51,518 nucleotides of DNA from Gallionellaceae bacterium (GTDB lineage Bacteria; Pseudomonadota; Gammaproteobacteria; Burkholderiales; Gallionellaceae): NCBI GenBank assembly GCA_019753125.1, contig JAIELH010000057.1:1-51518 (forward strand), given 5' to 3'. Below, piece after piece: positions 29,994-38,657 of this stretch (the stretch's first letter is position 1; every line of letters starts with the position of its first letter). The position numbers and the translations under genes are program-made. Under the pieces are notes generated by a model. It was not told the DNA's origin. It did no database searches and saw only the letters and a list, made by a program, of their open reading frames with translations.

Positions 29994-30848
29994 TCAGCAT
30001 GTATGTGCGTGATTATGATCGTGATCATGTTGGTGATGGTGGTGGTCGTGTGCTGCAGCCAGGCGATATTTGCAGCCGTCGCAATCCAGTCTGCCGCCTG
30101 TTGCAGCATGGTCGCGCACACGCGCATCGACTATTTTATTGATGCCTGCGTCGAAGCCAAAGTAACCGCCCAGCGCAAAGGCAATGTGCGGATAGCTCTG
30201 GCGCAGACGTGCGGCCTGCTGCTCGATGCGCTCGATCAGCACACCGGTGAAAAGATAAACCGGCTGGATCACGATTTGCGTCATGCCCAGTTTCACCTGA
30301 CGCTGCACCACAGTTTCCAGGCGCGGCAAAGTGATGCCGGTGAAGGCAATGTCCACCAGATCATGTTGCATATCTTCGAACAGCCAGCGCGCCATCTTGG
30401 CGATCTCGCCATTCGCTCCCGCATCCGATGAGCCGCGTCCGAGCAGGATAATGCCGGTGGTGCGTGGATCGGGCACAGCCAGTTCTTTCAGCAAGTGCTC
30501 GATGCGATGCCGGAGTATGGCGTGGATTTCGCGCCCCATGCCCAGCGGCGCGGTGCTGACGAACTCGATGCCGGGATGGCGCGTACGCGCGGCTGCGACT
30601 GCTTGCGGTATATCCATCTTGACGTGGCCTGCCGCATTCAGAAACAGGGGCACCACGATCACCTGTTTGCTATTCGCAGCAGCTTTATCCAGTCCATCGT
30701 TCATCAGCACCTTGCCATGTTCGATGAAGCACACCTCGACATGCAAACCGGAATGATGCGAGCGCCATGTTTCGGCGAAGCAAAGGATTTCCTCGTTGCC
30801 TGCGGTTTTGCGCGAGCCGTGGCCGATCAGCAGAATTGTTTCGTTCAA
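29994..30848 (-). CDS. cbiX: Sirohydrochlorin cobaltochelatase CbiX, long form with His-rich tail
   Basis: A 284-residue chelatase made of two related halves. Metal-handling histidines are seen in LLIGHGSRK (H10) and NAAGHVKMD (H75). It inserts Co2+ into sirohydrochlorin, committing the pathway to early cobalt insertion. The C-terminus carries CDGC (C256/C259), like the Fe-S-linked MXCXXC site described in long CbiX, and then an extreme histidine run (residues 267-282, HDHHHHQHDHDHNHAH) and a final Cys. The tail may store or deliver cobalt. It lies directly downstream of cbpB. Confidence 0.94.
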   Translation of the reverse strand: MNETILLIGHGSRKTAGNEEILCFAETWRSHHSGLHVEVCFIEHGKVLMNDGLDKAAANSKQVIVVPLFLNAAGHVKMDIPQAVAAARTRHPGIEFVSTAPLGMGREIHAILRHRIEHLLKELAVPDPRTTGIILLGRGSSDAGANGEIAKMARWLFEDMQHDLVDIAFTGITLPRLETVVQRQVKLGMTQIVIQPVYLFTGVLIERIEQQAARLRQSYPHIAFALGGYFGFDAGINKIVDARVRDHAATGGRLDCDGCKYRLAAAHDHHHHQHDHDHNHAHTC

Positions 30849-30893: not shown

Positions 30894-32276
30894 TCAGTTG
30901 AGCGCATGATTGAAAACCGTCTCCGTGTCTCCGTCCCATCCGTCCCACAGGTAGTCGTTGGCCTTGCCGTCGGCGATCAGGCGCAAGGCGTAGTTGACCT
31001 GCTCCTTGTAGAACTCGCAGAAAGCACCGGTTTTTTCCATGCCGCCGTTCATTTCGTATGCCTCGGCCGGGCAGGGCGAGCCGCAGAAATGGCGGATCGC
31101 GCAGTCACCGCAAGGGCTGAAAGTATCGACATCACGCGTTGTCACGGTCTGAAAAGCAGCTGAGGCTAGCGCCGCTTCGACGCCGCCTTCGGCCAGCAAA
31201 TTGCCGCCGTTGAAACGCGGCAGGCCGATGAATTCGCTGCAAGGGTACAGGCCGCCATCTGCCGCCAGGGCAAAAAAGGCGCGGCCACCGCCGCAGGGCG
31301 AGATATCGCACATCAGCCGCCGAGCCGTCGGCGCGAGAATGCCAATGAGGATGTTGGCGAAATTGGCGACTATCAGCTTGCGCCCCGTTTCACGATAGAG
31401 TTCATGAGTGCGATCCATCGCGGCGAAAAACGACTTTGCCATATCGCCGTCGGCCGGTTTCACTCCTCGCGCGCCAGGCAGGGTGCAGCGCACCGTATTG
31501 AGCATGCAGGTTGGCACTTCGCTGGCGTGGAACAGCTCGACCATCTGCGTCAGGTAAGGCAGGTTTTCGGTGGTGCAGGTGGTGATGACGCTCCATGAGC
31601 CGTAGCCTTTCAGCTTCTTCATCGCCGCCAGCACTTTGTCATGCACACTCTTGCCTCCCCAGGTTTTGCGCGTGGCATCGGTGATGCCGGCGAAGGGGCC
31701 GTCCAGCGAAAGGCCGATGCTGACGTTGCGCGAGGTGAGAAATTCCAGCGCCGCATCATCGAGCAACGTGCCATTGGTTTGCAGGCCAAAAACAAAATCC
31801 TCAGAGAATGCATCGATGGCGGAGAACACCGCCTCCTTGTTCATCAACGGCTCTGCGCCGTGAAAAATGGCGCGCGGCTTGCGCTCTTCGGGCATCACCG
31901 AGCGAAAGTAGTCGCGCAATTTTCCGAGCGAAGCGTTCAGTGTTTCTGGCGGCATGTGACTGCCGTTGCTGCGCTGCTCGCCGGGCAGGTAGCAGTAGGT
32001 GCAATTGAGGTTGCAGCGCTCGGTGGGATTCAGATAGACGCCGGAGGGCTTCAGTTCGAAGCGCAACGCATGCAGTTCGCGGGCGAAGCTGTCGGCCTTG
32101 GCACGATAGCTGTCGAGCAGCGGGCCGCCAGTGATTTCTTCATGGATACGCGTCTTGTCGACCAGCGCCCAGAAGGCGGTGTTCGGGTCGGTGACAGCGG
32201 CATATACATCATGGCCGATGTCCACGGGAATGAATGCCGGGCCGTTGCCGGCCCGGCTCAAAGCCTCAACGGTCAT
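30894..32276 (-). CDS. cbpB: Radical SAM/SPASM peptide-modifying enzyme, CbpB-like
   Basis: A 460-residue enzyme. The radical SAM cluster motif is CNLNCTYC (C88, C92, C95), followed by FHGAEPLMNKE in the GGEPL position and a barrel ending near residue 310. The C-terminal SPASM region has Cys at 323, 328, 346, 389, 392, 398, 402 and 420, enough for two auxiliary Fe-S clusters. This layout is typical of RiPP maturases. The start is the ATG at 32276, which overlaps the stop of the 49-residue peptide gene (AAATGA). A 63-codon upstream extension is a false frame across that peptide gene. I recall a named family, CbpB, tied to cobalamin operons; the reaction is unknown. Confidence 0.88.
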   Translation of the reverse strand: MTVEALSRAGNGPAFIPVDIGHDVYAAVTDPNTAFWALVDKTRIHEEITGGPLLDSYRAKADSFARELHALRFELKPSGVYLNPTERCNLNCTYCYLPGEQRSNGSHMPPETLNASLGKLRDYFRSVMPEERKPRAIFHGAEPLMNKEAVFSAIDAFSEDFVFGLQTNGTLLDDAALEFLTSRNVSIGLSLDGPFAGITDATRKTWGGKSVHDKVLAAMKKLKGYGSWSVITTCTTENLPYLTQMVELFHASEVPTCMLNTVRCTLPGARGVKPADGDMAKSFFAAMDRTHELYRETGRKLIVANFANILIGILAPTARRLMCDISPCGGGRAFFALAADGGLYPCSEFIGLPRFNGGNLLAEGGVEAALASAAFQTVTTRDVDTFSPCGDCAIRHFCGSPCPAEAYEMNGGMEKTGAFCEFYKEQVNYALRLIADGKANDYLWDGWDGDTETVFNHALN

Positions 32277-32422
32277 TTGGCCACTTTCTTGTCCATCAGC
32301 ACGTAATGCGAGAGGCCGATGCCATCCGGGTTGCAACTCTTGCGCACAGCGATAATCGGTGCTGGTGCAGCGGAAACGGTGGCGGCGGTTTGCGGGTGTT
32401 GTTTGCTTTTGGTTTGTTGCAT
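32273..32422 (-). CDS. cbpA: Candidate RiPP precursor peptide, CbpA-like (49 aa)
   Basis: A short gene read directly from the sequence: ATG at 32422 with AAGGAG six bases upstream, and TGA overlapping the cbpB start. The N-terminal part (1-26) is Gln/Lys/Ala/Pro/Thr-rich and leader-like. The C-terminal part holds SCNPDGIGLSHYVLMDKK (residues 29-46), with a single Cys (C30), a single Tyr (Y40) and H39. The other His is H9. It has no signal peptide or membrane segment. Tight coupling to a radical SAM/SPASM enzyme makes it the probable substrate. The position between cbiF and cbiX links it to cobalt or corrinoid metabolism by context only. Confidence 0.85.
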   Translation of the reverse strand: MQQTKSKQHPQTAATVSAAPAPIIAVRKSCNPDGIGLSHYVLMDKKVAK

Positions 32423-32467: not shown

Positions 32468-33253
32468 TTATTGCGCCACCTTCACGCCCTTGCGGAAGCG
32501 ATGGGTGAATCTGGCGTCATACAATTTCGATCTCTTCAATTCCGGCCATTGGCGCGCCCCCAGCGCGGGGCTGATGATAATCATGGCCTGGCTGTTGATT
32601 TTCTGCTCCCGGCACTTATCGCGGATATCTGCCAAGGTGCCACGGATGATTTTTTCTTCGCCGGGCCAGCTCGCCTTGTGCACCACCAATATCGGCGCAT
32701 CATCGCGCCAGCCTGCCGCCAGCAATTCCTTCCTGACTTCGCCCAGCAGCGTGATGGAAAGAAACACACACAGTGTGCTGTGATGTCGGGCCAGGTCCCT
32801 CAGCGTCTCGCCATCCGGCATCGGGGTGCGGCCTTCCATGCGCGTCAGGATCACCGTCTGCGTGACTTCCGGCAGTGTCAGGCTCTCCACTGCCGCTGCC
32901 GCAGCAGCCATCGCCGAAGATACACCGGGCACCACGCCGACGTCGATACCCGCCGCATCGAGCGGTTGCACCATTTCAATCAGCGCGCCGTACAGCGTCG
33001 GGTCGCCGGTCTGCAAGCGCACCACCGTCGCGTGTTTGGCCGCCCGGTCGATCAACCAGGCGGTGATCTCTTCCAGCGCCATGCTTTTCGAGTCGCAAAT
33101 CTCGCACCCAGTGCGTGCCCAGCGCGTGGTTGCTTCGGCGACCAGCGAGCCAGCGTAGAGTATGGCTCCCGCACTGGCTACCAGATCGCGTCCCTTGACC
33201 GTGATGAGATCGGGATCGCCGGGACCCGCGCCAACGAACCAGACTTTACCCAT
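32468..33253 (-). CDS. cbiF: (Cobalt-)precorrin-4 C11-methyltransferase
   Basis: A 261-residue SAM methyltransferase with VWFVGAGPGDPDLITVKG, LYAGSLV, RLQTGDPTLYGALIEM, VVPGVSSAMAAAAA, RTPMP and a CVFLSI strand, all standard for CbiF/CobM. It methylates C11. The ATG at 33253 overlaps the stop of the CbiM-like gene (TGATG). Forty-five bases separate it from cbpA. Confidence 0.94.
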   Translation of the reverse strand: MGKVWFVGAGPGDPDLITVKGRDLVASAGAILYAGSLVAEATTRWARTGCEICDSKSMALEEITAWLIDRAAKHATVVRLQTGDPTLYGALIEMVQPLDAAGIDVGVVPGVSSAMAAAAAAVESLTLPEVTQTVILTRMEGRTPMPDGETLRDLARHHSTLCVFLSITLLGEVRKELLAAGWRDDAPILVVHKASWPGEEKIIRGTLADIRDKCREQKINSQAMIIISPALGARQWPELKRSKLYDARFTHRFRKGVKVAQ

Positions 33254-33903
33254 CAATTTGCCAGCTTGAGCGACTTCACCGCGAAACAAATATCGACGAT
33301 TTTGCTATCCTCATGACGCTTGAGCAGGCGCAATGCGGAGTAGGTCAGCAGCGGTTCGCAGGCGACCAGCGCCAGATAGGACGAAGCAAAAGTTGCCCAT
33401 GCTGTAAATGATGTCGCTACATTGCTCATCGCCAGCCAGAAACCCACCATTATGGTGACGCCGCTGTAATACATCGCATCCAGCTTGAGAATATTTTTCC
33501 AGGTGATGACGCTATCCTGTTCGCGCAATTTGCGACCCAGCGTGTAATGCACGGCGATCAGCGGCACGATCAGCGACAGGCTGTTCACGGCCAGGTGCGG
33601 CAGATCCAGCGGATCGAACAACACGCCTTGCAACAGCAGGCCCACGGCGAATCCGATCAAGGTGGGCACAAAACCCAGCGTCAGGTAAATCACCATCGCC
33701 CCGACGAAGTGCAGTTCGGACGGCCCCACCTTGACGAAAAACCCCTGCATGAACAGCGAGAAAAATACCGCCGCCACCAGCATGCGCACGATGTCGGCCG
33801 GATTCTTGATCAGGTCTTTTGTGTAAGCAAGCAGCAGTCCAGCCGCGCCGACGTTGGCAGCCAAAATTTTGGCTTGAGCGATGATTCCGGGTTCGATGTG
33901 CAT
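33253..33903 (-). CDS. CbiM-like cobalt (ECF-type) transport membrane protein
   Basis: A 216-residue polytopic protein with about six hydrophobic spans. The N-terminus MHIEPGIIAQAKI keeps the His2 that binds metal in CbiM/NikM. H65 in SELHFVGAM matches the position of the second NikM metal histidine (about 67). It therefore looks like a substrate-binding subunit for Co2+ or Ni2+. Partner genes cbiN, cbiQ and cbiO are not nearby, so it either borrows an energising module from elsewhere or acts alone. Operon context favours cobalt. The stop overlaps cbiF. Confidence 0.75.
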   Translation of the reverse strand: MHIEPGIIAQAKILAANVGAAGLLLAYTKDLIKNPADIVRMLVAAVFFSLFMQGFFVKVGPSELHFVGAMVIYLTLGFVPTLIGFAVGLLLQGVLFDPLDLPHLAVNSLSLIVPLIAVHYTLGRKLREQDSVITWKNILKLDAMYYSGVTIMVGFWLAMSNVATSFTAWATFASSYLALVACEPLLTYSALRLLKRHEDSKIVDICFAVKSLKLAN

Positions 33904-35228: not shown

Positions 35229-35839
35229 AACTCAACGCCTTTCTGCGCCTGAATGCCGGTACGATAGGCGTGTTTGATGTCGCGCATCTCGGTGACGGTG
35301 TCGGCAAACTCAATGAGCGCATCGGGTGCAGCACGGCCAGTTAATACCACATGCTGCATGGGCGGGCGTGCTCGCAAGGCGGCGAGCACCGTTTGCAGAT
35401 CGAGATAGCTATGTTTGAGCGCGATGTTGATTTCATCCAGCACCACCAAATCCACTGCGGGATCGGTGAGGAACGCTATCGCCTGCTGCCATGCACGGCC
35501 TGCGGCAGCAATGTCGCGCTCACGATCCTGCGTTTCCCAGGTGAAGCCTTCGCCCATTACGTGATAGCTGACTTCGGGGAAGCGGCGAAAGAATATTTCC
35601 TCACCAGTGGAAAAACTGCCCTTGATGAATTGCACCACGCCCACGCGCATGTTGTGCCCGAGGGCGCGTGCAACCATGCCGAACGCCGAGCTGCTCTTGC
35701 CCTTGCCGTTGCCGGTGTGCACCAGCACGATGCCGCGATTCTCCGTAGCACCGGCTATTTTTGCATCGACGATTTCCTTGTGGCGTTGCGTGCGCGCACG
35801 ATGCTTGTCATCGGCAGGAACAGCACTTTTATCGCCCAT
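35225..35839 (-). CDS. cobO: Corrinoid adenosyltransferase (CobO/BtuR type)
   Basis: A 204-residue ATP:co(I)rrinoid adenosyltransferase. The modified P-loop HTGNGKGKSSSAFG is near residues 41-54; VVQFIKG, WETQDRERD and VVLDEINIAL follow as in CobO/CobA. It installs the Co-C adenosyl bond. The start overlaps the btuM stop by one base, and the end overlaps cbiA. Confidence 0.95.
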   Translation of the reverse strand: MGDKSAVPADDKHRARTQRHKEIVDAKIAGATENRGIVLVHTGNGKGKSSSAFGMVARALGHNMRVGVVQFIKGSFSTGEEIFFRRFPEVSYHVMGEGFTWETQDRERDIAAAGRAWQQAIAFLTDPAVDLVVLDEINIALKHSYLDLQTVLAALRARPPMQHVVLTGRAAPDALIEFADTVTEMRDIKHAYRTGIQAQKGVEL

Positions 35840-36411
35840 TATTTACCTGCTGTTTTGACGGCAACGGGCGAGCGCACCGACAGCGCCGCATACAACGCAG
35901 CCGCACACGCCAGATACAGCAGGCCACCGGTCAGATATTGCGGATAGTATTGCGCCACGCGCGCGACATACTCAGCCACATTGACGTTCGGATAGCGTCC
36001 AGAAAACCAGTAAAACGCCCCGTTGGAAATGAAAAACGCCACGCTGACCGCGGCAAACGCGATGCCTGAAAATACCCCCAGGCTACGCCAGCTTTGCTGA
36101 TGAATGCGCGCATAGTAGCGGCCCGCGAGCCACAGCACCGCATAGGTCGGAATCAGAAACCAGTAGGCGGGCGTGACGCACCAATCGCTGACGCCCAGGT
36201 GGGTGATCGCGACATAATCCAACGCGCCCGCTTCAAGCAACAGGCCGGCAAAAAACAGCGGGCTGGCGATGAAGAAACCCGCCAGCATGAATACCGCCAC
36301 CGAAGCATCCGGCAGATGCAGTGCCGTGCCGAAATGATGCATGCGTGTGGCCGCCATCAAGGCTGCCAAAACAAAGCCGATTAATGCTGAACGTTGAGAT
36401 AACAGTTTCAT
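35839..36411 (-). CDS. btuM: Vitamin B12 transporter BtuM-like membrane protein
   Basis: A 190-residue hydrophobic protein with about six spans. It has FGTALHLPDASVAVFMLAGF in the first third and VSDWCVTPAY with its single prominent Cys at residue 78. BtuM of Thiobacillus denitrificans is a solitary ECF S-component that binds cobalamin cobalt through Cys80; length, span count and Cys position fit. It probably moves cobalamin or corrinoids across the inner membrane. It sits between btuB and cobO, just after a hairpin that may attenuate the operon. Confidence 0.78.
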   Translation of the reverse strand: MKLLSQRSALIGFVLAALMAATRMHHFGTALHLPDASVAVFMLAGFFIASPLFFAGLLLEAGALDYVAITHLGVSDWCVTPAYWFLIPTYAVLWLAGRYYARIHQQSWRSLGVFSGIAFAAVSVAFFISNGAFYWFSGRYPNVNVAEYVARVAQYYPQYLTGGLLYLACAAALYAALSVRSPVAVKTAGK

Positions 36412-38316: not shown

Positions 38317-38461
38317 GTTCAAACACAGGAAATGATGAGGGCAAAACAGGAAGGAAGCGCGGTCAACCGGCATGGCTGGCCATTCTGCCGTCCATGCGCC
38401 GCCCGCTGCATTTCCCGACCTATGAAATTACCCAAAGTTTTCTTGGGGAATCCCTGCATTC

Positions 38462-38640
38462 AAGGCCGATATACGGGCTCGCAAGACAAAACGCATCGCC
38501 TTCCCATAAGATCCCTTGCAGGGATATGCTCACAGTGGCATATTGATGTGTCCACACTTGCTTACCGTTGCGGGGGCAGCACAGGTGTTTCACCTGTTTC
38601 CCGTTTAACCGGATGGCGCAAACCATCCGGCACCTCAATG
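38462..38640 (-). promoter_or_regulatory. Cobalamin (AdoCbl) riboswitch upstream of btuB
   Basis: On the minus strand the aptamer shows GGTGCC with TTAAACGGGAA, the P-stem ACAGGTG/CACCTGT, the invariant TGCCCCCGCAACGGTAAGC, and the B12 box GCCACTG (38539-38533). GGGAAGGCGATGCG and the closing GAGCCCG...CGGCC follow. This is the classic adenosylcobalamin-sensing fold. It heads the 20-kb cobalamin operon and should shut off btuB and downstream genes when cobalamin is plentiful. About 185 bases of leader separate it from the btuB start. Confidence 0.95.
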
Positions 38641-38648
38641 CGGAACGG

Positions 38649-38657
38649 ATTATAGCA
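38649..38657 (-). promoter_or_regulatory. Extended -10 promoter for the riboswitch/cobalamin operon
   Basis: TGCTATAAT on the minus strand is a perfect -10 box with a TGn extension, placed about 15 bases before the aptamer's conserved GGTGCC. No good -35 is found at the usual spacing, as is common for extended -10 promoters. Confidence 0.6.

Follow-up and report, generated by a model that had tools for sequence, protein, structure and literature searches.

Radical SAM/SPASM enzymes are recognized by a CX3CX2C motif combined with a seven-cysteine SPASM pattern, and several of them are known to modify ribosomal peptides. PapB, the SCIFF maturase and QhpD are thioether makers; freyrasin-type substrates carry a CX3D motif, and ranthipeptides (CX3D/E) combine a cysteine with an acceptor Asp or Glu four residues on. 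The substrate of the dynobactin maturase DynA receives a His-Tyr link and also a Trp link. The pairs PqqA/PqqE and MftA/MftC each consist of a very short, strongly conserved peptide and a SPASM enzyme, and in PQQ-like cofactor precursors a peptidase and a peptide chaperone accompany the pair. A further pair, CbpA (TIGR04164) and CbpB (TIGR04163), is named in the NCBIfam database and is uncharacterised as far as we could search: a full-text search of open-access literature for the model accessions and names, with subscription papers mostly outside its scope, returned no paper, none of the titles listed by further literature searches concerns the pair, and the passages searched in PMC7689651, PMC9062424, PMC8326336, PMC7470986 and PMC9600662 do not mention it, save for one ‘CbpA’-like word in PMC7689651.

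Here, we analyzed a member of this family in a window of 51,518 nucleotides, the whole stretch of DNA under study, from a Gallionellaceae bacterium (contig JAIELH010000057.1). The two adjacent genes exceed both models by a wide margin (CbpA 56.3 bits, curated cut-off 35; CbpB 732.4 bits, cut-off 375, covering profile positions 3–428 of 428), and the names CbpA/CbpB, which an earlier note on this DNA had given, proved correct. A Methylovirgula plasmid carries annotation under identical names. Nothing sets the window's genes apart from the models; their unusual points are the place within a cob operon and a mosaic sequence. The window thus holds an ordinary member of its named family in an unusual genomic place.

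The cbpAB locus of the window

The start of cbpB overlaps the end of cbpA (ATGA within AAATGACC), with cbiF on the upstream and cbiX on the downstream side of the pair. These coordinates agree with the earlier description of a 49-codon gene overlapping the gene of a 460-residue enzyme between cbiF and cbiX, and the riboswitch-led B12 operon postulated there was found as well: a cobalamin riboswitch (98.8 bits to RF00174) heads the operon and is the only such match in the genome assembly of the window, which is 88% complete. After the riboswitch, the order is btuB, a membrane gene akin to the solved cobalamin transporter PDB 8c7p, cobO, cbiA, cbiM, cbiF, cbpA, cbpB, cbiX, followed by cbiC, cbiD, cbiET, cbiL, cbiG and cbiH and, at the end, by a nitroreductase-family gene, cbiB, an aminotransferase gene and a cobQ-like gene, several of these names being interpretations of family matches. 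A 190-aa membrane protein encoded at 35839–36411, a candidate BtuM, had no match in a Pfam scan but scored 131 bits against the structure 8c7p. The cobalt uptake gene cbiM stands without cbiN, cbiQ or cbiO among the scanned operon genes.

Table 1 Features of the cbpAB region in the window.
Feature	Position	Strand	Description and basis
cbpA	32422-32273	minus	49 aa plus stop; predicted modified-peptide precursor; TIGR04164
CbpA conserved core, A25 to M43 (AVRKSCNPDGIGLSHYVLM)	32294..32350	minus	position statistics over 90 loci
cbpB	32276-30894	minus	460 aa plus stop; radical SAM/SPASM enzyme; TIGR04163
cbiX	29994..30848	minus	long-form sirohydrochlorin chelatase with His-rich C-terminal tail; PF01903 in two stretches, tail from translation
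cbiF	32468..33289	minus	TIGR01465, 339 bits
cbiM (cobalt uptake)	33253..33903	minus	PF01891, 104.1 bits
Cobalamin riboswitch at head of operon	38446..38652	minus	RF00174, 98.8 bits
Probable recombination-mosaic tract	30956..32335	minus	block comparison, tree

Pairing and distribution of CbpA and CbpB

The comparison was based on 91 loci, namely 80 from a species-level collection (the best 80 of 514 confirmed relatives), ten from a search across the phylum and the window itself. The 90 relatives (labelled L in the following; genomes are labelled G) are not independent, with L071 and L091 lying on one contig and L029/L030 and L021/L025 each in one assembly, and many of them come from metagenome-assembled genomes (MAGs). 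Within this set, a CbpA-like reading frame precedes cbpB on the same strand in 90/91 loci, and the adjacency of cbpA and cbpB is therefore more than chance. Relative to the cbpB match, the cbpA stop ranges from 7 nt past it to 360 nt before it (median 56 nt before). Only L050 is without CbpA, and merely 220 nt of contig precede its cbpB match.

Among 398 phylum-sampled genomes, CbpB scored over the cut-off in 11 and CbpA in the identical 11, with one copy each and no case of CbpA without CbpB. Within this sample, the pair is obligate. The earlier note would have been refuted by the absence of a conserved peptide beside other cbpB genes; such a peptide is there in 90/91 loci, and CbpA occurs in all 11 of these carriers. 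In the order of the window, CbpA was found in 4/300 genomes, the window's own counted, and the four other genomes of its genus are without it. From these counts, 11/398 in the phylum and 4/300 in the order, the distribution is rare and patchy.

Two cbpAB loci each are present in the MAG Azoarcus sp. BE2011_69_25 (L021, L025) and in Azoarcus sp. Aa7 (L029, L030). On the Methylovirgula plasmid pHY1 (L146; 7798–9377, 11215–12747), cbpAB lies about 1.8 kb before pqqA, pqqD and pqqE. Downstream of cbpAB in an actinobacterial MAG, a radical SAM gene (L063, 12276–13547) scores over the sulfatase-maturase cut-off, and weak second CbpB-like matches (24–27%) also lie downstream in L048, L060, L074 and L077.

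A cobalamin riboswitch directly upstream of cbpA

The strongest new point on the family, and a well supported one, is that cbpAB has a riboswitch of its own. In 75/90 relatives, a set including the best 80 of 514, a cobalamin riboswitch lies immediately upstream of cbpA. A covariance model (R1), built from nine loci that were also among those searched, detected it in 74/90, and Rfam added L069; four loci (L020, L021, L050, L081) were searched with R1 only. With Rfam alone, 10 of 14 initially scanned loci gave a cobalamin aptamer directly before cbpA. The covariance model was preceded by a fuzzy aptamer pattern, initial patterns having missed the cbpA-linked aptamers. All 74 R1 aptamers are on the same strand as cbpB and start 364–659 nt before its match. 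Outside the original set, the aptamer was found at L148 and L149 (at L148 also by Rfam) and not detected at the plasmid locus L146, while L147 is the place already counted as L024.

A terminator-like hairpin between aptamer and cbpA stands at or above the 99% level of single-base shuffles in 50/74 loci and below it in 24. In L005, for example, a promoter-like site is followed by the aptamer, a 20-pair hairpin with a T run and the gene. In 28/75 riboswitch-led loci, the next gene called lies within 300 nt and is convergent, so that the unit there consists of just cbpAB. A second cobalamin-riboswitch-like match on the opposite strand was seen within 800 nt upstream of cbpB in L010, L033, L034, L056 and L062, so that B12 may regulate cbpAB together with a divergent set of genes.

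The 15 relatives without a detected riboswitch are of different kinds. Three of them (L049, L050, L076) have less than 450 nt of upstream sequence (L050 220 nt, L076 431 nt), and L050, whose contig ends there, may have a riboswitch of its own. Seven (L020, L021, L035, L073, L079, L080, L081) lie in cob operons. The other five (L008, L036, L042, L043, L064) are not in cob operons and showed no aptamer even when Rfam was run leniently. The stretches examined for L008, L036, L042, L043, L076 and the plasmid locus L146 contained no riboswitch and no cob gene. The earlier note had argued from the neighbourhood of cbiM, cbiX and btuB; that this neighbourhood defines the system is not supported, given a riboswitch directly before cbpA in 75/90 relatives, and the cob-operon setting of the window's pair is the exception.

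The CbpA peptide and the CbpB enzyme

Over the 90 peptides, aligned on the GLSH that occurs in all of them, CbpA follows the motif IAxRKxCx[AP]xGxGLSH[YF][IV]LM. The two glycines and L, S and H are found in 90/90, followed by Y in 86 and F in 4; R..C is likewise present in 90/90, with one residue inserted between C and Gly in L061. CbpA consists largely of its core, with estimated lengths of 30–65 aa (start codons chosen by rule). The shortest forms (L059 30 aa, L068 32, L073 33) have few residues before the core, which suggests that there is no separate leader; by eye, neither a signal peptide nor a double-glycine leader was seen in CbpA. Third codon positions of the core are free to vary and close to saturation, whereas first and second positions are not, and pN/pS is 0.33 over 21 core codons (600 sampled pairs), which argues for selection acting on the peptide. 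A comparison of the core with solved proteins gave nothing meaningful (best E 0.1, an antibody chain).

CbpB carries the full radical SAM/SPASM cysteine set. In an alignment of the window with 82 of the 90 others (A5; eight near-duplicates left out), the triad C88-C92-C95, the seven SPASM cysteines C328, C346, C389, C392, C398, C402 and C420 and two extra cysteines (C264, C323) are invariant in 83/83 sequences. Together with the matches to TIGR04163, PF04055 (2.8e-16) and TIGR04085 (49.3 bits, cut-off 27), this confirms the radical SAM/SPASM maturase of the earlier note. PF13186 stayed under its cut-off (17.4 against 21.5), and no PqqD-like Pfam domain matched CbpB at E up to 10.

Beyond its own family, CbpB best matches the NCBIfam models for PapB, DynA, YhhB, the SCIFF maturase and QhpD, some of which form thioethers and others different crosslinks; the solved protein closest to it in sequence is 5wgg, the SCIFF maturase CteB. 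CbpB matches PapB, the SCIFF maturase and QhpD with 119, 99 and 99 bits but remains far below their cut-offs (340, 425, 453), and its peptide differs from thioether-maker substrates in having a single cysteine in 83/90 cases and Gly at the freyrasin-type CX3D position in 89/90. With Gly at the acceptor position in 89/90, CbpA is ruled out as a CX3D/E ranthipeptide; D or E stands one place nearer to the cysteine in 59/90. DynA, the second further match (111 bits), is likewise not reached (cut-off 450). CbpA resembles the dynobactin substrate in its invariant His beside Tyr or Phe, but lacks Trp in 89/90 peptides. As in PqqA/PqqE and MftA/MftC, a short conserved peptide is combined with a SPASM enzyme, yet a PqqD-like partner or a peptidase is missing among the families listed for genes adjacent to cbpAB.

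Link to de novo B12 synthesis and genomic neighbours

CbiC, which serves both B12 routes, was found in 10/11 CbpB carriers of the phylum sample versus 140/387 non-carriers (Fisher p 3.5e-4). It was also present in 27/30 carrier genomes, including all 11 named isolates; we selected these 30 from the 80 loci of the species-level collection (the best 80 of 514) and also used them for CbiD, CobN, CbiX/CbiK and CobW. The carriers missing CbiC (G411, G419 and G421 of the 30, G125 of the 11) are all MAGs or incomplete. The B12-related role suggested before is supported. The pair is dispensable for B12 synthesis, since 140/150 CbiC-positive sampled genomes lack it.

CbiD was detected in 25/30 of the chosen genomes and CobN over the cut-off in 7/30, while a PF01903 match occurred in 25/30, some of these being weak or to CbiK-like genes. 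Four genomes (G405–G408) have CobN over the cut-off and no CbiX or CbiK match, the isolates concerned being Blastochloris sulfoviridis, Rhodopseudomonas rhenobacensis, Rhodoblastus sphagnicola and R. acidophilus. Therefore, the pair is not tied to CbiX; it occurs with both early (CbiX/CbiK) and late (CobN) cobalt insertion. What unites the carrier genomes is that they require cobalt as well as the corrin ring.

Cobalt genes were found next to the pair where it lacks a riboswitch of its own. In 7 of the 16 loci without one seen (the window counted, three cut short), the gene right after cbpB is a cobalt gene: cbiX in the window, L020 and L021, which are related loci, CbiK in L073, CbiM in L050 and L081 and NicO in L064. 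In the other nine, the next gene lies far off, is encoded on the other strand, could not be identified as a cobalt gene or falls past the contig end. Matches to CbiX, CbiK, CbiM or NicO were found in 0/18 scanned co-directional next genes of riboswitch-led loci, and the cobalt link accordingly comes from the loci without their own riboswitch. The neighbourhood claim is further weakened by the isolates with CobN and without CbiX/CbiK, and by the presence of any cob or cobalt gene in just 26/91 loci (tblastn, E 1e-4, 21 queries, stretches of 2.9–21 kb). In L007, L023 and L031, cbiF abuts cbiX and the pair is located elsewhere.

We also considered CbpA as a substitute for known delivery parts. 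CobW is over the cut-off in 5/7 CobN-bearing carriers, and CbiX of the window has a His-rich tail of its own; a replacement of CobW and, for the window, of the CbiX tail was therefore rejected. No constant operon partner emerged, as the neighbour families listed occur in 1–5 loci each, the largest outside the cob and cobalt genes being RDD (5/58 upstream genes), and no recurrent protease or exporter was seen among the families listed for adjacent genes. The family scan covered 27 downstream and 58/79 upstream genes (21 dropped), and the families listed are 25/26 downstream and 25/70 upstream (45 of the 70 outside the list). These neighbour lists are approximate, because the gene calls rest on an approximate composition classifier.

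Origin of the window's copy

In a tree of 36/91 CbpB sequences, the window groups with L005 and L006 (support 100/99) and not with L020/L021. In L005 and L006, a riboswitch leads cbpAB and the stretch examined contains no cob gene; L020/L021 share the operon order of the window. A DNA block comparison, with one 6-nt end block left out, showed a mosaic tract (Table 1) with 82–97% identity to L005 per 60-column block versus 54–92% to L020, and flanks with 67–83% to L020 versus 31–64% to L005. The adjoining block 30955–30896 has 78% to L005 and 82% to L020, and toward its N-terminus the window's CbpA follows the L020/L021 type. The copy in the window is probably a recombination mosaic, most simply explained by a stand-alone copy having replaced an operon copy from the core through to the enzyme. 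Such an exchange would have moved core and enzyme as one and left the variable N-terminus in place, in keeping with the core as the part that the enzyme needs.

Proposed function of CbpA

We propose that CbpB crosslinks the CbpA core and that, at low B12, the product is left intact and helps to provide corrin synthesis with cobalt, a reading to which we give slightly less than an even chance. Its parts differ in strength. Family, pairing and riboswitch are well supported, and a modification of CbpA by CbpB is likely. The cobalt role, with cobalt as a putative ligand of CbpA, is put forward tentatively, as nearly balanced between true and false; among the options of the earlier note, cobalt handling is the best, though unproven. 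Judged by its riboswitch, the cbpAB module would probably be made at low B12. CbpB would then act on the short core RKxCx[AP]xGxGLSH[YF], where the invariant Cys most likely becomes one end of a crosslink; the link may be a thioether, our first guess because the peptide has one invariant Cys, or a different bond to a residue within GxGLSH[YF]. The modified peptide probably remains whole inside the cell, since no protease or exporter recurs among the families listed for adjacent genes and no leader could be recognised. Its most likely job would be to support cobalt supply to corrin-ring synthesis, which could be useful to early (CbiX/CbiK) and late (CobN) insertion. The full statement that mature CbpA is a radical-SAM-crosslinked, riboswitch-controlled cobalt-handling peptide for early- and late-insertion B12 makers is possible but rather doubtful.

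The tie to de novo corrin makers, the occurrence with both pathway types, the cobalamin riboswitch and the place among corrin-ring genes in some operons would also suit a mature CbpA that binds or carries a corrin intermediate or a finished cobamide in the cell instead of cobalt. We consider this unlikely, as the gene next to the pair is a cobalt transporter or chelatase gene in 7 of the 16 loci where no own riboswitch was seen, and a ring methyltransferase gene in none of these 7. The short, nearly invariant core and the SPASM maturase are also what one would see if CbpA, like PqqA and MftA, gave rise to a small peptide-derived cofactor for an enzyme needed at low B12; however, no recurrent peptidase or PqqD-like gene is among the adjacent-gene families listed, and only the pair itself is left in the 28/75 riboswitch-led loci with a convergent next gene, which makes a cofactor precursor quite improbable.

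Patchy distribution and one plasmid copy suggest horizontal spread and might point to a secreted metallophore, signal or antimicrobial. This is very unlikely for a peptide in which neither a signal peptide nor a double-glycine leader could be recognized by eye, next to which listed exporter families recur in at most 3/58 upstream and 2/27 downstream genes, and whose core is nearly invariant across phyla, a feature unusual for antimicrobials. A dedicated cobalt chaperone of the CbiX chelatase appears very unlikely indeed: cbiX is the gene right after cbpB in the window, L020 and L021, and 25/30 carrier genomes have a PF01903 match (some weak or CbiK-like), but four pair-bearing isolates have no CbiX or CbiK match, and in three loci cbiF abuts cbiX with the pair elsewhere.

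Given the ordinary window member, the interest of this locus lies in the family-level findings. New here are the same-genome pairing, the short core-like peptide, the riboswitch of its own, the tie to de novo B12 makers and the occurrence with both B12 routes. With the own riboswitch, the two-gene unit, the peptides of 30–33 aa and the link to de novo corrin makers, a family known by annotation becomes a testable system of one peptide, one enzyme, one regulator and one pathway. A role of CbpA in cobalt handling, if true, would fill a gap in the account of metal insertion by B12 makers; to our knowledge, no such metal-delivery agent, a crosslinked cobalt-handling peptide, is known in B12 biology. 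If CbpA instead carries corrinoids or becomes a cofactor, this would be equally new.
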